The notes beneath the pieces were generated by a model. The model made no database searches. It was not told the DNA's origin and saw only the letters and a list, made by a program, of their open reading frames with translations. The position numbers and the translations under genes were made by a program. A stretch of 64,000 nucleotides of DNA from Methylobacterium sp. CB376 (GTDB lineage: Bacteria > Pseudomonadota > Alphaproteobacteria > Rhizobiales > Beijerinckiaceae): positions 4,849,001 through 4,913,000 of the forward strand of contig NZ_CP121648.1 of the NCBI RefSeq assembly GCF_029714205.1, written 5' to 3'. Numbering within the stretch: position 1 is the stretch's first letter; each line of letters begins with the position of its first letter. Positions 2,150-58,984 of the stretch are shown piece by piece.

Positions 2150-2680
2150 GCCGAATTCCTCACGTCAGACGCAGAGTTCGTGGTCGCACACGGCCTCGTT
2201 GCGCCCCGAGAATGAGATTAAAAGCTTGATCGATCCTTGATGGGCTGTCAGAGTCTCCGCCTTATCGGGAGTTTGATGCCGTCCTTATCGGCGAGTACAA
2301 GCAGAATGACCGCGGATAAAGCGGTGGTGCGTCGGCGGTCGAACCGAAGTCTAAGAGACTATATCGTAGACTTTGCGTCATCGATCGGCCGTTCGGATGG
2401 TCGACGCGATCACGGAGGGACGGCGCGGCGGCCGCGGGCGCGACGGGATCGCAGCGGGCCTCAATCGGGGAGGCGTGCCCAGCGATCGGATCGCGTCCGC
2501 CCGCGCGCAGCGGCCGACGAGGGGCCGTGCGCTCCCGTCGGGCCGGGCGTGCGATGCCGTTGTCCGGCGATCCGTTCGGCCCCTTGGTGGCACCCACCCC
2601 TCCCTCGTGCCGAGAGGGCGTGAGGACCATTACCGTGCGGCCTCACGATCCTGGGCTTCGCTCAGGCGCCGGCGGGCTCG
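2150..2680. other. Intergenic region without convincing gene
   Basis: This gap between the TadG-like gene and the nuclease gene has no reading frame with plausible codon use or a ribosome site. The part nearest the TadG-like start (2200-2380) is less GC-rich than the surroundings and probably carries its promoter. It contains a 7-bp inverted repeat, AAGTCTA (2347-2353) and TAGACTT (2367-2373), around an A/T-rich spacer. A fragment resembling the stop-codon-associated repeat described elsewhere (GGCTTCGCTCAGGCGCC) lies at 2653-2669. Confidence 0.5.
2347..2373. promoter_or_regulatory. Candidate operator: 7-bp inverted repeat
   Basis: AAGTCTA and TAGACTT are separated by 13 bases (AGAGACTATATCG) in an otherwise GC-rich region. 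The symmetry and A/T-rich spacer fit a dimeric regulator site upstream of the TadG-like gene. No known regulator consensus was recognised. Confidence 0.25.
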
Positions 2681-2781
2681 TGATCCGATGGGTCCCTTGC
2701 GGATGGCGGATGTGGGCTCCGGGCAAGGGCCGCGCGGGCGCGTGATCCGGGATCCGCTTCGATCGACCGGATCCCGGATCA
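2681..2781. repeat. Stop-codon-associated REP-like repeat, copy A
   Basis: The element starts TGATCCG and ends in a perfect 14-bp palindrome: TGATCCGGGATCCG (2743-2756), loop CTTCGATCGAC, CGGATCCCGGATCA (2768-2781). The middle holds GCGGATG and GCCGCGCGGGCGCG, shared with copies at 49026 and 55612. The final TCA is, on the minus strand, the TGA stop codon of the Mrr-like nuclease gene. A 14-bp GC-rich stem could stop or stabilise the 3' end of that transcript. Confidence 0.8.
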
Positions 2782-3528
2782 GCCCTCGTCCAGTTCCAGC
2801 ACCGCGAGGTCGTCGTGGTGGAGCAGGAGCACGTCGGTCGCCGCGGCGAGCTTGCGGGCGGCCGGGGTGAAGCCCGCATTCGAGACCACCGCCGCCCAGT
2901 CGGCGCTCCAGTAGCTGCGCGCCGCCACCACCTCCTGCACGGCGGCGTTGCCGACCGGCTTCGTGTAGCGCTTGCACTGCAGGACGAGGCGCACGCCGCG
3001 CTGCTCGGCGATCACGTCGGCGCCCTGGTCGCCCGAGGCGCGCGTCGCGCGCGCGGCCCAACCGGCGCGCTCCAGCAGCGCGGCGCAGTAGCGCTCGTAG
3101 GCGATCCCGTCGTCGGGCAGCTCCTCCTCGGGCCCGGCCGGCGCCAGCGAGGCCGCCTCCACGATCGCCACGAGGTCGGCGCGGCGCTCGGGGATCAGGT
3201 CGGCGTAGCCCTCCGCCTCCAGCCGCGGCACCAGGGTGCGGGCGATGTAGTAGGCGCGCTCGCGCTCCCACCCGTCGAGGATCAGGTTGTCGTAGGCGTC
3301 GAGGTAGCTCTCCTGGCGGCGGCGGAGGGCGAGCACCTCCCGGTGCCGGGCGACGAGGGCGCGCGCGCGTCGCCGGAAGCGGCGCCCGCGGCCGAGGCGG
3401 CGGACCAGGATGACCGCGAGCGCGAGGCCGCCCGCCGCCAGCGCCGCCCGCCCGATCCACAGGCTCGCGAGGGTGCCGGCCACCACGGGCCAGAAGGCGA
3501 GATCGGCGATGCTGCGCGGCGCGGCCAT
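2779..3528 (-). CDS. Membrane-anchored Mrr-type restriction-endonuclease-fold protein
   Basis: The 249-residue product has one or two N-terminal transmembrane helices (residues 10-42) followed by a basic patch and a helical linker. The C-terminal Mrr_cat-type nuclease domain covers residues 140-245. The PD-(D/E)xK pattern is visible as GDQGADVI (Asp171) and QCKRY (Gln185, Lys187), preceded by YERYCAALLERAGW. The start was placed at the ATG at 3528 because GAGGAG lies just upstream; the frame stays open further, but that part is arginine/proline-rich noise. Mrr-type domains cut (often modified) DNA, and membrane-tethered versions occur in defence and in DNA maintenance. No methyltransferase is nearby. 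Its TGA stop lies inside repeat copy A. Confidence 0.82.
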   Translation of the reverse strand: MAAPRSIADLAFWPVVAGTLASLWIGRAALAAGGLALAVILVRRLGRGRRFRRRARALVARHREVLALRRRQESYLDAYDNLILDGWERERAYYIARTLVPRLEAEGYADLIPERRADLVAIVEAASLAPAGPEEELPDDGIAYERYCAALLERAGWAARATRASGDQGADVIAEQRGVRLVLQCKRYTKPVGNAAVQEVVAARSYWSADWAAVVSNAGFTPAARKLAAATDVLLLHHDDLAVLELDEG

Positions 3529-10131: not shown

Positions 10132-11283
10132 ATGCTCGACGTGGCGACATTGCTGGCCGTCGCGACGTGCCTCTGTTTCATCGTCGGCCTGCTGTTCCTC
10201 CTGTCCTGGCGCCAAGCGCCCCGGACCCGGGCGCTCGCGATCTGGGGCGTCGGGCATCTGCTCGCGGCGGTTGCATCGGTCCTCCTCGCGGGGCAGGGCA
10301 CGCTGCCCGACCTGGTCTCCATCGGCCTCGCGAACGCGCTGATGCTGGGCGCCTTCGGCCTGATGTGGAGCGGCGCGCGCAGCTTCGAGGGGCGCCGGAC
10401 GCCCCTCGCCGCCCTGGCGGCCGCCCCCGCCCTCTGGTGCGCGGCCTGCGCGGTCCCGGCTTTCCTGGCGAGTTCCTCGGGGCGGGTGATGCTCGTCGCG
10501 GCCCTCGCGGCGGTGCCGTGCGGCCTCACCGCGCGCGAGATCTGGCGCGGGCGCGGGGAGCCGCTCGTCTCCCGCCTCCCGGCGGCCGCCCTGACGGCGA
10601 GCGAGGCGCTCCTCTTCGTGGTCCGGATCCCGCTCACCGCCCTGCGGCCGCCGAGCGAGCCCTATCCCCTCACGCTCCCGGGGATGGGCGCCCTGGTCCT
10701 GCTGGGCCTGCTCTACACGGTGGCGCTGGCCTTCCTGTTCCTGGCCCTGGCCAAGGAGCGGCTCGAATGGCAGCAGCGGCTCAGCGCGCTCACCGATCCG
10801 CTCACCGGGGCGCTCAACCGGCGCGGCCTGGAGCAGGCCGCCGCCTGCGTGCTGGCGGGCGGGCCGGCGACGCTCCTCCTCCTCGATCTCGATCACTTCA
10901 AGCGCGTGAACGACACCTACGGGCACGGGGTCGGGGACGAGGTGCTCGTCGCCTGCGCTGCCGCGATGCCGGGGTGTCTCCCGCCGCGGGCGGTGATCGG
11001 GCGCCTGGGCGGCGAGGAATTCGCCTGCCTGCTGCCGGACGGGGAGGGGGCGGGGGAGATCGCCGAAGCGATCCGGCGGGCCGTGGCGGCGCTGCGCCTG
11101 GAGCGCGCGCCGGACCTGCACGTGACGGCGAGCATCGGCGCCGCGCGGGGCGGTTCGGAGCTTCAATGCCTGATCGCCAGGGCCGATCGGGCGCTCTACC
11201 GCGCAAAGCGCGGCGGTCGCAACCGCGTCGCCTGGGATCCCGACCGCGTCGGGCCGCCTCCCGATCTCGACCTCGCGTCGTGA
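10132..11283 (+). CDS. Membrane diguanylate cyclase (GGDEF), first of a tandem pair
   Basis: The 383-residue protein has about six predicted membrane helices (residues 4-205), then [27 protein letters not shown] and a GGDEF domain. The active-site motif is GGEEF in [12 protein letters not shown], and the metal/substrate motif [14 protein letters not shown] is intact, so it should make cyclic di-GMP. The inhibitory I-site RxxD is absent (RAVI occupies the position), so product inhibition by that route is unlikely. The start MLDVATLL aligns exactly with the downstream paralogue at 11514. The N-terminal region is a short sensor-like membrane block shared only with that paralogue here. Its TGA stop coincides with the left end of repeat copy B. 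Confidence 0.92.
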   Translation: MLDVATLLAVATCLCFIVGLLFLLSWRQAPRTRALAIWGVGHLLAAVASVLLAGQGTLPDLVSIGLANALMLGAFGLMWSGARSFEGRRTPLAALAAAPALWCAACAVPAFLASSSGRVMLVAALAAVPCGLTAREIWRGRGEPLVSRLPAAALTASEALLFVVRIPLTALRPPSEPYPLTLPGMGALVLLGLLYTVALAFLFLALAKERLEWQQRLSALTDPLTGALNRRGLEQAAACVLAGGPATLLLLDLDHFKRVNDTYGHGVGDEVLVACAAAMPGCLPPRAVIGRLGGEEFACLLPDGEGAGEIAEAIRRAVAALRLERAPDLHVTASIGAARGGSELQCLIARADRALYRAKRGGRNRVAWDPDRVGPPPDLDLAS

Positions 11284-11360
11284 TCCGACATCCGACGGGT
11301 TGCGTCGCCATGCGGAGTTCGGCTTCGCTCAAGCGCCGCGCGGGCGAGGGAGCCTGGCCG
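11281..11360. repeat. Stop-codon-associated REP-like repeat, copy B (partial)
   Basis: Begins TGATCCGACATCCG, matching the left end of copy C (TCATCCGACATCCG), and continues through GGCTTCGCTCAAGCGCCGCGCGGGC, shared with copies A and C. The right-hand palindrome is missing. Its first three bases are the TGA stop codon of the upstream diguanylate cyclase. Unlike the other copies, the gene lies on its left side. Confidence 0.7.
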
Positions 11361-49025: not shown

Positions 49026-49229
49026 TCATCCGACATCCGGTTGATCGCTTCGCGATGTGGATGTCGGCTTCGCTCAGGCGCCGCGCGGGCTTGGCATACG
49101 ACATCCGGTTGATCGCTTCGCCATCTCGCATTTCGGCGATGCGGATGTCGGCTTCGCTCAGGCGCCGCGCTCAGGCGCCGCGCGGGCTCGTGAGCCGGGA
49201 CCCGCTTCGATCGAGCGGATCCCGGATCA
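49026..49229. repeat. Stop-codon-associated REP-like repeat, copy C (internally duplicated)
   Basis: The longest copy starts TCATCCGACATCCG and ends TGAGCCGGGACCCG, loop CTTCGATCGAG, CGGATCCCGGATCA (two mismatches in the palindrome). Its interior is tandemly duplicated: CATCCGGTTGATCGCTTCGC occurs twice, GATGTCGGCTTCGCTCAGG twice and TCAGGCGCCGCGC three times. The terminal TCA gives the TGA stop of the 97-residue minus-strand gene. Confidence 0.85.
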
Positions 49230-49520
49230 GGCGACCAATTCGGGCTTGCCGGCCGTGCAATCCGGCACCGAGCGCCGGAACAGGGCCGCGCAGCGCGATT
49301 CCCGGTGCACGCTCAGGATCGAGGCCCGGTCGATATCCGGGTTCTCGGCCAGGATCCGGCGCACATCCTCGACGAGCTGCCCGTAGCGCGCCGGATCGTA
49401 GCCGCTCTCCAGCGGGCTCACGGCGATGTAGGCCTCGACGACCAGAACCTTCTCGGCCGTCTCCCGCGTGACCTCCGCGGCGATCCAGGCGGATTTCACG
49501 AGGCGGTTCGGCATGACCAT
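49227..49520 (-). CDS. Small conserved-looking protein, unknown
   Basis: The 97-residue soluble protein starts MVMPNRLVKSAWIAAEVTRETAEKVLVVEAYIAVSP, then a helical middle (YDPARYGQLVEDVRRILAENPDIDRASILSVH) and two Cys. It has normal codon use for this genome. ATG at 49520 or 49514 can be the start; GGAGG is just upstream. The TGA stop is contributed by repeat copy C, so the original C-terminus may have been changed by the insertion. No family recognised. Confidence 0.65.
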   Translation of the reverse strand: MVMPNRLVKSAWIAAEVTRETAEKVLVVEAYIAVSPLESGYDPARYGQLVEDVRRILAENPDIDRASILSVHRESRCAALFRRSVPDCTAGKPELVA

Positions 49521-55611: not shown

Positions 55612-55702
55612 CCACTCCGCTTGATCCCTTCGGGACGGCGGTTGGGGGCGTCGCTCACGCGCCGCGCGGGCGCGTGAGACGGGATCCGCCTGGATAGGAT
55701 CA
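55612..55702. repeat. Stop-codon-associated REP-like repeat, copy D (decayed)
   Basis: The element contains GCTTGATC, CGTCGCTCACGCGCCGCGCGGGCGCG, TGAGACGGGATCCG and a worn right arm ending GGATCA. The match to copies A and C is clear over the GCGCCGCGCGGGC core and the palindrome's left arm. The final TCA is again the TGA stop codon of a minus-strand gene, here cca. Confidence 0.7.
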
Positions 55703-56956
55703 GCCATCGGAGGCCCGCGCCGCCTCCAGCGCCAGCCTCACCAGCCGCTGGCGGGCGGGGGCGTCGGAGGGGCAGCCCTCGGCGAGCCACGCCGCCCGCG
55801 CCGCGGCCAGCGCCCGCCCGAGCCCCGGTCCCGGGGTGGCCCCGCCGGCCACGAGCTGCGCCCCCGTCACCGGGAAAAGCGGCACCGCGATGCGGCCCGC
55901 CGCGAGGGAGGCGAGCAGCTCCCGTGCCTCCTCGTCGAGGATGGGGCGGGGCTCGCCCGCGAGGATCATCGTCGCGTCGATGATTGCCGGAAGGCCGTGC
56001 CGGGCGACCTGCCGGCGGAGCGCGGCGGCGTCGATCGCCTCCGTCGCCCCGTGCAGCGCCGCGAGGGCGGCCGCGGCGCCCGCGAGCCGCGCGTGCTCGG
56101 CCTTGGAGAGCCGCAGCCCCTCGCGCAGCCGGTCGGCATCCGCCTCCGACTGCACCGCCAGGGCGGCGAGCCGGCGCACCGGGTCGGGCGGGTCGTCGCG
56201 GGAGCGCAGCCGCGCGAGGCGGCCGAGATCGCCGATCCCGCCGAGGAGCCGCTGCAGCAGCCCGGTCGCGGACATGACCGCGACCACCTCGGGCGCGCCC
56301 GGCGCCGCGACGAGCTTCAGCATCTCGACCCGGACCCTCTCCCGGGACAGGGTGGCGAGGCCGTCGCGCGCGGCGATCGCGGCGGCGAGGCCGGCGGGAT
56401 CGAGGGGACCGCGCCCGTAGCGGGCGTGGAAGCGGAAGAAGCGCAGGATCCGGAGGTAATCCTCGCGGATGCGCTGGGCCGGATCGCCGATGAAGCGCAC
56501 CCGCCCGGCCGCGAGGTCGGGCAGGCCGCCGACGGGGTCGTGCAGGTGCCCGCCCGCATCCGCGAACAGCGCGTTGATGGTGAAGTCGCGCCGCGCCGCG
56601 TCCCGGCCGAAATCCCGGCCGTAGCGCACCACCGCGTGGCGGCCGTCCGTCTCCACATCCTCGCGCAGGGTCGTGACCTCGAAGGGCTCGCCGTGGGCCA
56701 CCACCGTGACGGTGCCGTGGCTGATCCCGGTCGGGACCGGCTTCAGCCCCGACGCGGCGGCGCGCCGCATCACCGTCTCGGGCAGGAGCGTCGTGGCGAG
56801 GTCCACATCCGCCACGGCGCGGCCGAGCAGCGCGTCCCGCACCGCCCCGCCGACGAGGCGGGTCTCCTCGCCGGGCAGGGCGAGGGCGTCCAGCACCTTG
56901 CGCAGGGGGGCGCGGGCCAGCAGGGCCGCGAGGCCGCCCGCGTCGCGCAGGCTCAT
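55700..56956 (-). CDS. cca: CCA-adding tRNA nucleotidyltransferase
   Basis: The 418-residue enzyme has the class II nucleotidyltransferase head LVGGAVRDALLGRAVADVDLATT with GG, RD and the catalytic pair Asp50 and Asp52. Downstream motifs are RRDFTINALF and RIREDYLRILRFFRFHARYG, then a helical tail. It adds or repairs the CCA end of tRNA (a poly(A) polymerase of the same family is the alternative, less likely in this lineage). Its 5' end overlaps the DUF6111 gene by four bases, making it the last gene of a tight operon. Its TGA stop lies in repeat copy D, and the tail (ALEAARASDG) may be shaped by it. Confidence 0.94.
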   Translation of the reverse strand: MSLRDAGGLAALLARAPLRKVLDALALPGEETRLVGGAVRDALLGRAVADVDLATTLLPETVMRRAAASGLKPVPTGISHGTVTVVAHGEPFEVTTLREDVETDGRHAVVRYGRDFGRDAARRDFTINALFADAGGHLHDPVGGLPDLAAGRVRFIGDPAQRIREDYLRILRFFRFHARYGRGPLDPAGLAAAIAARDGLATLSRERVRVEMLKLVAAPGAPEVVAVMSATGLLQRLLGGIGDLGRLARLRSRDDPPDPVRRLAALAVQSEADADRLREGLRLSKAEHARLAGAAAALAALHGATEAIDAAALRRQVARHGLPAIIDATMILAGEPRPILDEEARELLASLAAGRIAVPLFPVTGAQLVAGGATPGPGLGRALAAARAAWLAEGCPSDAPARQRLVRLALEAARASDG

Positions 56957-57908: not shown

Positions 57909-58519
57909 GACAGCTCCGCGGCCGGCAGGATCGAGTGGAAGCGCCCGCCCGCCGCGAGGCCGAACCAGCGCGCGCCCTCGACCTCGCGCTCCTCGCAGAG
58001 ATCGACGAGGTCGTAGACGAGGGCGCGGGTCACCAGCGCCCAGAGCCCGTGGCGGACGTGGATGTAGGGCTTGAGGCCGCCCTCGGCGTCGCGCTCGAAG
58101 CGCATTCCGTGCGCCTCGTCGAGCGGCACGAGGTCGTCGAGGTTGGTGCGGAAGGCGAGGCGGCGCGCCTCGCCCTCGCCCTCCACAGCCATCTCGACGG
58201 CCAGGAAGGGCGCGTCCTCGACCTCGATCCCGACCCGCTCGACCGGGGTGACGAGCACGATCCGCCCGTCCGGGTCCCGCCGCAGGATCGAGGCGAAGAG
58301 GCGCACCAGGGCCGGCCGCGCGATCGGGCTGCCGTTGTAGTGCCAGGTGCCGTCCGCGGCGATCCGCATCGGGATCTCGCCGCAATAGGCCGGATTCCAG
58401 CGCTCGACCGGGGGCGGCCCGCGCCGGCCCGCCTCCGGCCCGAGGGCGGCGGCGAGGCGCGCGAGCGGGCCCGGCGAGGGGGATTCCGGTGAGGCGGGGC
58501 CGGACGAAGTCTGCGTCAT
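57905..58519 (-). CDS. DUF1285 family protein
   Basis: The 204-residue protein is a single DUF1285 domain: VERWNPAYCGEIPMRIAADGTWHYNGSPIARPALVRLFASILRRD, VLVTPVERVGIEVEDAPFLAVEM, and the ending YIHVRHGLWALVTRALVYDLVDL. Structures of the family show a two-subdomain fold with a deep pocket; the function is not established. It begins the overlapping block DUF1285-NUDIX-DUF6111-cca. The first 35 residues are Pro/Ser-rich and variable. Confidence 0.92.
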   Translation of the reverse strand: MTQTSSGPASPESPSPGPLARLAAALGPEAGRRGPPPVERWNPAYCGEIPMRIAADGTWHYNGSPIARPALVRLFASILRRDPDGRIVLVTPVERVGIEVEDAPFLAVEMAVEGEGEARRLAFRTNLDDLVPLDEAHGMRFERDAEGGLKPYIHVRHGLWALVTRALVYDLVDLCEEREVEGARWFGLAAGGRFHSILPAAELS

Positions 58520-58558
58520 GCGCTGAAGATAGGCGAGGCGCGACGGTTTTGAACGTCC

Positions 58559-58984
58559 TCAGCTGGCCGGATCGGGCCGCCGCCGCAGGATCTTCCACAC
58601 GCCCGTGCAGGTCGCCGCGACCCGGCCCCGGCTCGTCACGTCGCCGCGCAGGAAGACCAGGGTGCCGGTGCGCTGGACGACCTGCGGCACCAGCGTCGCC
58701 ACCTCGCCGATGCGCAGGGCCGCGATGAACTGCATCTCGAACTGCACGGTGACGCAGTTCGCGCCCTCGGCCGCCGCCATCGCGGTCACGCCGAGCGCCC
58801 GGTCCGCGAAGGTCATCAGCATCCCGCCCTGCACGACCCCGATCAGGTTGGCGTGCTTGGGCTCGGCCCGGAACGCGTAGGAGGCCGGCCCCTCGCCCTC
58901 GCGCACGAAGATCGGGCCGACGAGGTCGACGAAGCCGGGATCCGTGAAGGGATGCCAGCCCTGGGAGGGGTCGAGGTCGCTCAT
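58559..58984 (-). CDS. Hotdog-fold thioesterase (PaaI-like)
   Basis: The 141-residue protein has a hotdog fold with HANLIGVVQGGMLMTFADRALGVTAM, where the Gly-Gly-Met and Asp are the PaaI-type active-site pattern, and FEMQFIAALRIGEVATLVPQVVQRTGTLVFLRGDV. It would hydrolyse an acyl-CoA; the acyl group is unknown. It stands 39 bases upstream of the DUF1285 gene in the same direction and may be in the same transcript. Start MSDLDPSQGW is the first ATG. Confidence 0.92.
   Translation of the reverse strand: MSDLDPSQGWHPFTDPGFVDLVGPIFVREGEGPASYAFRAEPKHANLIGVVQGGMLMTFADRALGVTAMAAAEGANCVTVQFEMQFIAALRIGEVATLVPQVVQRTGTLVFLRGDVTSRGRVAATCTGVWKILRRRPDPAS

Follow-up and report, generated by a model that had tools for sequence, protein, structure and literature searches.

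REPINs and BIMEs consist of paired hairpins with a spacer between them, and in E. coli a REP lying close to a stop codon reportedly affects ribosomes. Single-strand transposition of the HUH type is that of IS200/IS605 or REP-like elements, and in IS200/IS605 elements a guide sequence pairs with the cleavage site. Here we analyze a repeat family of Methylobacterium sp. CB376, four copies of which lie in the window, that is, the whole stretch of 64,000 nucleotides under study. With the RAYT-associated REPINs and BIMEs, as presented in part of PMC2817692, the family shares paired hairpins with a spacer, an extragenic location and hundreds of copies; unlike them, it has end triplets that are direct instead of inverted, a conserved spacer between variable hairpins, and no RAYT gene in the window's genome or in 12 congeners. 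GTAG- and CGTC-tagged REPs are likewise short, palindromic, present in high copy number and located mostly between convergent or tandem genes, and GTAG REP termini often supply a TAG stop codon, according to the sections of PMC3733652 that treat them. In contrast to these REPs, the element described here is flanked by a direct TGA triplet that varies with the site, bears neither a GTAG nor a CGTC tag, has two different hairpins and a conserved linker, and is accompanied by no Y1 gene in the same 13 genomes.

The CIR elements of Caulobacter and Brucella, also Alphaproteobacteria, resemble the family in their size of about 110 bp, their two arms plus linker and their intergenic position (portions of PMC2229807 and PMC10969869). 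Membership in CIR was nevertheless rejected: the GANTC motif, given as conserved in CIR in that portion of PMC2229807, occurs in 9 of the 115 bodies with both ends placed. CIR target duplication is marked with a question mark in a table of the same paper, and it is by description that the element is set apart from CIR. Finally, the IS1031 subgroup of the IS5 family and its derived MITEs show the same 3-bp TNA target duplication, in our case TGA (PMC12016507, in its part on this subgroup). Unlike IS1031-type MITEs, however, the element has ends that differ from theirs, a polarity and no parent among the transposase loci examined; the 3-bp TNA duplication is found, and IS1031-like terminal repeats are not. 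The family combines traits of GTAG-REPs, CIR elements and IS1031-type elements and fits none of them fully. Neither a stop-codon-duplicating element nor a Methylobacterium REP or MITE family was found among the literature matches listed, and the M. extorquens genome paper, in the part that bears on such repeats, reports one MITE, MiniMdi3, of about 400 bp.

Anatomy of the repeat and its copies in the window

The repeat, about 100 bp in length, is probably a non-autonomous mobile element composed of a left hairpin, a conserved linker of 25 bases (the core) and a right hairpin, a degree of confidence that applies to the whole of the explanation developed below, TGA duplication included. The hairpin-plus-core unit can occur in tandem repeats. 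All four copies noted in a preliminary description (A to D) were confirmed in place, and the terminal TGA/TCA of each is the stop codon of a called gene (4/4); coordinates and Pfam matches agree with the earlier naming of these genes as Mrr-like, diguanylate cyclase (GGDEF), a 97-residue unknown and cca. That description also saw a perfect end palindrome in copy A and worn ones in C and D. As a correction, only C is intact, whereas A has no left hairpin, B has no right end and D is worn.

The body of copy C (49029-49226, plus strand) holds two hairpin-plus-core units, with cores at 49066-49090 and 49150-49174, the second of them partly duplicated as 49163-49187, followed by a right hairpin of the R1 type at 49191-49226. 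The same triplet stands at both ends: TCA 49026-49028 would be the distal copy of a duplicated 3-bp target, and TCA 49227-49229, which on the minus strand is the TGA stop of the 97-residue gene, would be the gene-side copy. This gene (49227-49520, minus strand) ends in ...PELVA, has no Pfam match and was assigned no function. In Methylobacterium sp. WSM2598 (G303), which belongs to the same species, the copy C locus has one unit more than in the window's genome. Copy A (2654-2778, plus strand) retains two worn cores and the right hairpin, having lost the left one, and abuts TGA 2779-2781, the stop of the Mrr-like gene (2779-3528, Pfam Mrr_cat; both on the minus strand). Copy B (11284-11345, plus strand), made of a left hairpin and a core, begins directly after TGA 11281-11283, the stop of the GGDEF gene (10132-11283, Pfam GGDEF; both on the plus strand). 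Copy D (55612-55699, plus strand) comprises a left hairpin with a worn end, a core at 55647-55671 and a shortened right hairpin, next to TGA 55700-55702, the stop of cca (55700-56956, Pfam PolyA_pol; both on the minus strand). Contact with the gene is thus made by the right end in copies A and D and by the left end in copy B.

At 82 of 180 loci the arms of the right hairpin are perfectly paired for 8 or more bases, as opposed to 1 of 180 when the place is shifted, and they vary from genome to genome with the pairing maintained. Folding z-scores range from -3.8 to -5.9 on four strands of three loci, the fold being two hairpin arms plus linker. No Rfam covariance model matched an element in the window or at 10 loci. 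The sole window match at the gathering threshold is the suhB/mmgR sRNA (RF00519; 33449-33523, minus strand, 69.7 bits). Solo hairpins were also considered as the mobile unit and rejected, the 29 R2-pattern matches off cores looking like noise by eye; away from a core, 8 R1 matches as scored and 0 left hairpins were recorded.

End triplets and contact with stop codons

The core (GGCTTCGCTCAGGCGCCGCGCGGGC, 25 bases) has 403 matches at up to 3 mismatches, 195 forward and 208 reverse, in the 7.69-Mb genome to which the window belongs (G000), where the reversed core, used as a control, has 0 at the same threshold. The sample analyzed comprises 152 clusters from 142 islands (555,593 bp), picked by core, full-element or hairpin matches among the matches listed, to which the window and four stretches of 20 kb were added; the tolerance for cluster cores was 5 mismatches, and at least 2 chance matches (816784 and window 7239) are included. 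Both ends could be placed in 115 of these clusters, and in 81 of the 115 the two ends have an identical triplet when read on one strand. Read in core orientation, the 115 end pairs are TCA/TCA (64), TGA/TGA (17), TGA/TCA (4), TCA/TGA (2) and other (28), and among the last group 18 are one base off a matching pair, in 16 cases at the left end. The TCA or TGA identity of one end agrees with that of the other (Fisher P = 2e-12), with discordant ends in 6 of the 87 TGA- or TCA-ended copies of this genome. Since mostly the same triplet is found at both ends, and since it differs between sites beside a constant element, it is read as a duplicated 3-bp target, TGA. Matching pairs are all TGA or TCA (81/81), as opposed to 164 of 204 intergenic TNAs with a middle G or C (P = 2e-8), and hence TSA is the preferred target in the window's genome and TNA is rejected as its target there. 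The preference for a G or C middle base holds among the 26 non-stop copies alone (P = 0.003), and no TAA/TAA, TTA/TTA or TAG pairs occur among the 115 two-ended clusters.

The element ends read TGA followed by TCCG on the left and GGA followed by TGA on the right, with variants. It had been proposed that the element targets TGATC at stops. The TGA of this proposal stands, but the following bases are not required, as TGAGAC, TGATAC and TGATCC are all found and the target widens to TNA in a more distant host (G393); no other obvious conserved sequence surrounds it. In this genome from another family, 8 copies have a like core and different hairpins, and their end pairs TAA/TAA (L306, L311), TGA/TGA (L309) and TTA/TTA (L314) are, judging from the sequence, characteristic of target-site duplication at TNA, 3 bp in length. 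The other 4 copies, which are decayed, rearranged or without these hairpins, show CCA/TCA (L315), TTG/ATA (L308), no normal right end (L300) or other hairpins in place of the usual ones, which are absent (L313).

We therefore favor, with considerable though not full confidence, a non-autonomous element of about 100 bp that inserts at TGA and duplicates the triplet. Insertion would leave TGA on both sides, or TNA in the more distant host, and an enzyme supplied in trans would move the element. A stop codon would be a harmless landing site because the duplicated TGA restores an in-frame stop and leaves the protein unchanged, whereas insertions inside genes or promoters would be lost through selection. 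Copies would consequently pile up on stops as a result of selection elsewhere and of the few other TGAs available in GC-rich intergenic space. Small size, high copy number and presence/absence between strains, as expected of a MITE, are all observed, and target-site duplication is seen in 81 of 115 copies, with the polarity discussed below and the 6 discordant copies as a caveat.

The contact with stops was quantified with genes called by a codon-usage script, by which some genes were missed. In core orientation, coding stops concentrate at positions that equal the lengths of the hairpin types: for genes that converge from the right these are exactly +39 or +40, and for genes that come from the left exactly 37 or 53. 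A coding stop falls exactly at a recognized end in 88 of 147 clusters, and 55 of 81 intact copies are on a coding stop, against 25% expected (P = 4e-16), the baseline being the stops among the window's non-genic TGAs (54/218, counting TGAs inside the four copies). The claim of a REP-like family placed exactly at stops far above chance is therefore upheld. A region-conditioned test with the element removed, which drops 6 of the 81 copies (5 at stretch edges and 1 inside a called gene), finds 54 of 75 copies on stops against 41.4 expected (P = 3e-5); the excess is real, but much of what had been taken as improbable by chance follows from a TGA target in GC-rich space. The leftover lies mainly between tandem genes (23 observed against 15.2 expected), where start regions downstream could be under selection. 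Taken together, a TGA target, the few TGAs in GC-rich spacers and the loss of harmful insertions explain most, but not all, of the stop coincidence, and the part of the residual excess that is not fully accounted for weighs against our preferred explanation. The remaining 26 of 81 intact copies are at TGAs not scored as stops, some of which probably belong to missed genes. A replication-strand bias was considered and set aside, the complete list of 86 places having no clear pattern.

At up to 2 mismatches, the core matches 16 of 248 genomes of the family, 11 of them in the genus (11 of the 16 genus genomes drawn, the window's own included) and 5 in other genera; G008, G068, G149, G181 and G194 are congeners with no core match in this search. 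A class-wide scan, through which G393 came to light, matches 17 of 385 genomes, mostly with single matches, and the reversed control gives single matches in 6 genomes. A family-wide panel of 27 distinct loci, in which two of 28 loci proved to be the same array and two without recognizable ends (L189, L190) are counted, has a stop exactly at the element end in 17 (one TAA) and the same triplet at both ends in at least 13. Three further species rich in the element (G127, G231 and G262) were represented by 90 of 168 exact-pattern places, 6 of these loci being common with the panel. There, 74 of the 90 loci are two-ended, with TCA/TCA in 50, TGA/TGA in 0, TGA/TCA in 4 and other pairs in 20, and 40 of 90 lie exactly on a coding stop. 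One congener carries five cores in tandem with a 105-bp period (L187; G011:C9 near 58,500-58,970). Two distant genomes (L290, L307) share the core within a longer similar stretch, with flanks unlike those of this repeat family.

Element-free sites and the origin of the stops

The preliminary description had suggested, as an alternative to targeting, that the element comes with a stop of its own and redefines where genes end. The exact overlap of the element end with the stop speaks for such a process, and GTAG-type REPs are reported, in the relevant part of PMC3733652, to give TAG stops to flanking ORFs. Element-free orthologues nonetheless contradict it at the four loci tested. In all 12 Methylobacterium genomes that lack the element at locus C (11 named species plus strain DB0501, found via the neighboring 97-residue protein and free of a core for 400 bases around), the protein has the same last residue, in ...PELVA, followed by TGA in 11 and by TAG in 1; the thirteenth orthologue, in G303, carries the element. 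The stop was thus present at locus C before insertion; it did not come with the element, which left the protein as it was. Likewise, G287, which is 84-90% identical to the window's genome at locus C, lacks the element at three orthologous sites, and at each of them the stop occupies the same codon. A redefinition of gene ends by the element is accordingly very unlikely.

The three copies compared with these G287 sites include, in the window's genome, one discordant pair (TGA/TCA) and one with a changed left triplet (TTA/TCA), which counts against duplication. Five such comparisons were made, two of them uninformative, one owing to the hairpin TGAGACGCTC...GAGCGTCTCA. This different hairpin occupies the element's place in G287 near 3,311,900 of the window's genome (L257), which suggests a second family with the same habit.

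Between the window's genome and G303, which are 97-99% identical at locus C, one compound insertion (hairpin plus element) is present only in the former. Another site is filled in G303 and element-free in the window's genome, with a diverged flank, and at the 5.06-Mb site the empty allele reads CCA and the filled one TCA, a further point against duplication. In G303, one site holds a second full element that shares a TCA with the first (TCA-E-TCA-E-TCA). These comparisons bear on the idea that the repeat is not mobile at all and constitutes a conserved RNA structure of the 3' end, a terminator or stability element, held at stops by selection. The pairing kept between differing arms (82/180 against 1/180 shifted) and the place directly after a gene are in line with it. 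Presence and absence between strains and species, the nested copy, the 26 intact copies at TGAs not scored as stops (some of them probably next to missed genes), the patchy distribution in the genus and the lack of an Rfam family matching an element make this interpretation very improbable.

Polarity, possible mobilization and consequences

A difficulty for TGA duplication is polarity. R1-type copies of the window's genome include 48 TCA/TCA and 0 TGA/TGA, the inner foot of the right hairpin being usually TGA, and the corresponding figures in G127, G231 and G262 are 50 and 0, a bias unexpected of a simple staggered-cut duplication. In these three species a constant, element-borne terminal TCA fits as well as duplication does, and at 3 of the 4 TGA/TCA loci the left TGA is the gene stop, which duplication does not predict. 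R2-type copies, in turn, include 14 TGA/TGA and 9 TCA/TCA, with a TCA or GCA foot in 17 of 23; because they carry either triplet, the element does not come with a set triplet there. In 63 of 71 copies the middle base of the inner foot is complementary to that of the outer triplet (Fisher P = 6e-10, middle G versus C), middle-G feet going with one orientation only (49:0) and middle-C feet mostly with the other (14:7). If the inner arm later served to correct the outer one, reversed copies could end up as TGA/TCA, yet only three R1 copies read so.

R1 polarity is not explained by a plain duplicating transposase and, by analogy, resembles the pairing of guide and cleavage site in IS200/IS605 elements. 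It is conceivable, though doubtful, that the inner-foot triplet selects and orients the target by base pairing and so steers the repeat to TGA stops; feet that are exactly TCA (4 TGA/TGA against 6 TCA/TCA) go against such a guide rule. If true, a hairpin-guided mobile element that duplicates stop codons would be a mode of targeting not found described in the literature examined. A slightly better, but still unlikely, possibility is single-strand transposition of the HUH type, in which the element would join 3' of a TGA, bring its own terminal TGA and use the foot triplet as guide, with no duplication. Strict R1 polarity, middle-base complementarity and hairpins at both ends speak for such a mechanism. 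It is at odds with R2-type copies that go both ways (14:9), with the exact TCA feet, with the G393 end pairs, which co-vary (TAA/TAA, TTA/TTA, TGA/TGA) unlike an element-borne end, and with the G393 inner feet, which by eye do not pair with the triplet. The RAYT-type transposase sought elsewhere in the genome was not encountered either: PF01797 (Y1_Tnp) has 0 matches in the window's genome and 12 congeners, in a search with matches in 3 of 21 genomes, all outside the genus, and controls positive in 5 of 14.

Under the preferred duplication of TGA, the enzyme acting in trans might be an IS5-family transposase of the IS1031 type, an assignment that we put forward only tentatively. In the corresponding part of PMC12016507, TNA is the preferred target of the IS1031 group, the repeat made is exclusively of 3 bp, and TGA is among the examples; in addition, one IS5-type copy of the window's genome is flanked by a TGA duplication, and its GAGCCGG ends agree at 12 of 16 positions. 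These ends are, however, unlike the TCCG/TACG/GACG of the element, no end pair fits the element in 32 transposase loci, several of which represent one and the same IS, a loose filter let through three more weak pairs flanked by TNA that do not match it either, and polarity would stay unexplained. Because their ends do not match, the IS5-type transposases of these loci were rejected as parents, and no transposase-bearing element with matching ends was found among the IS5-type (PF13340) and DDE_Tnp_1 (PF01609) loci examined. The IS5-family copy with the GAGCCGG inverted ends (L277, 1366-2291; G000:C1 near 7,575,700) is the only convincing TNA-flanked IS among these loci. Near 3,184,430 of the same contig (L043/L330), an element lies directly after what looks like an IS5-type transposase truncated at ...RWVVERSFGW, possibly as an insertion inside the transposase gene.

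For annotators, gene ends that touch such repeats are original, and not acquired, at the loci tested. The occurrence of so-called extragenic repeats that abut stops becomes a testable question of targeting, with the prediction that empty sites have one TGA and filled sites two. With a strong hairpin placed at the stops of many genes, termination and the decay of mRNA could be influenced; beginning at the stop codon, such a hairpin may, within the mRNA, shield the transcript or bring it to an end. More generally, the family suggests that a mobile repeat can be harmless by copying the stop codon on which it lands.
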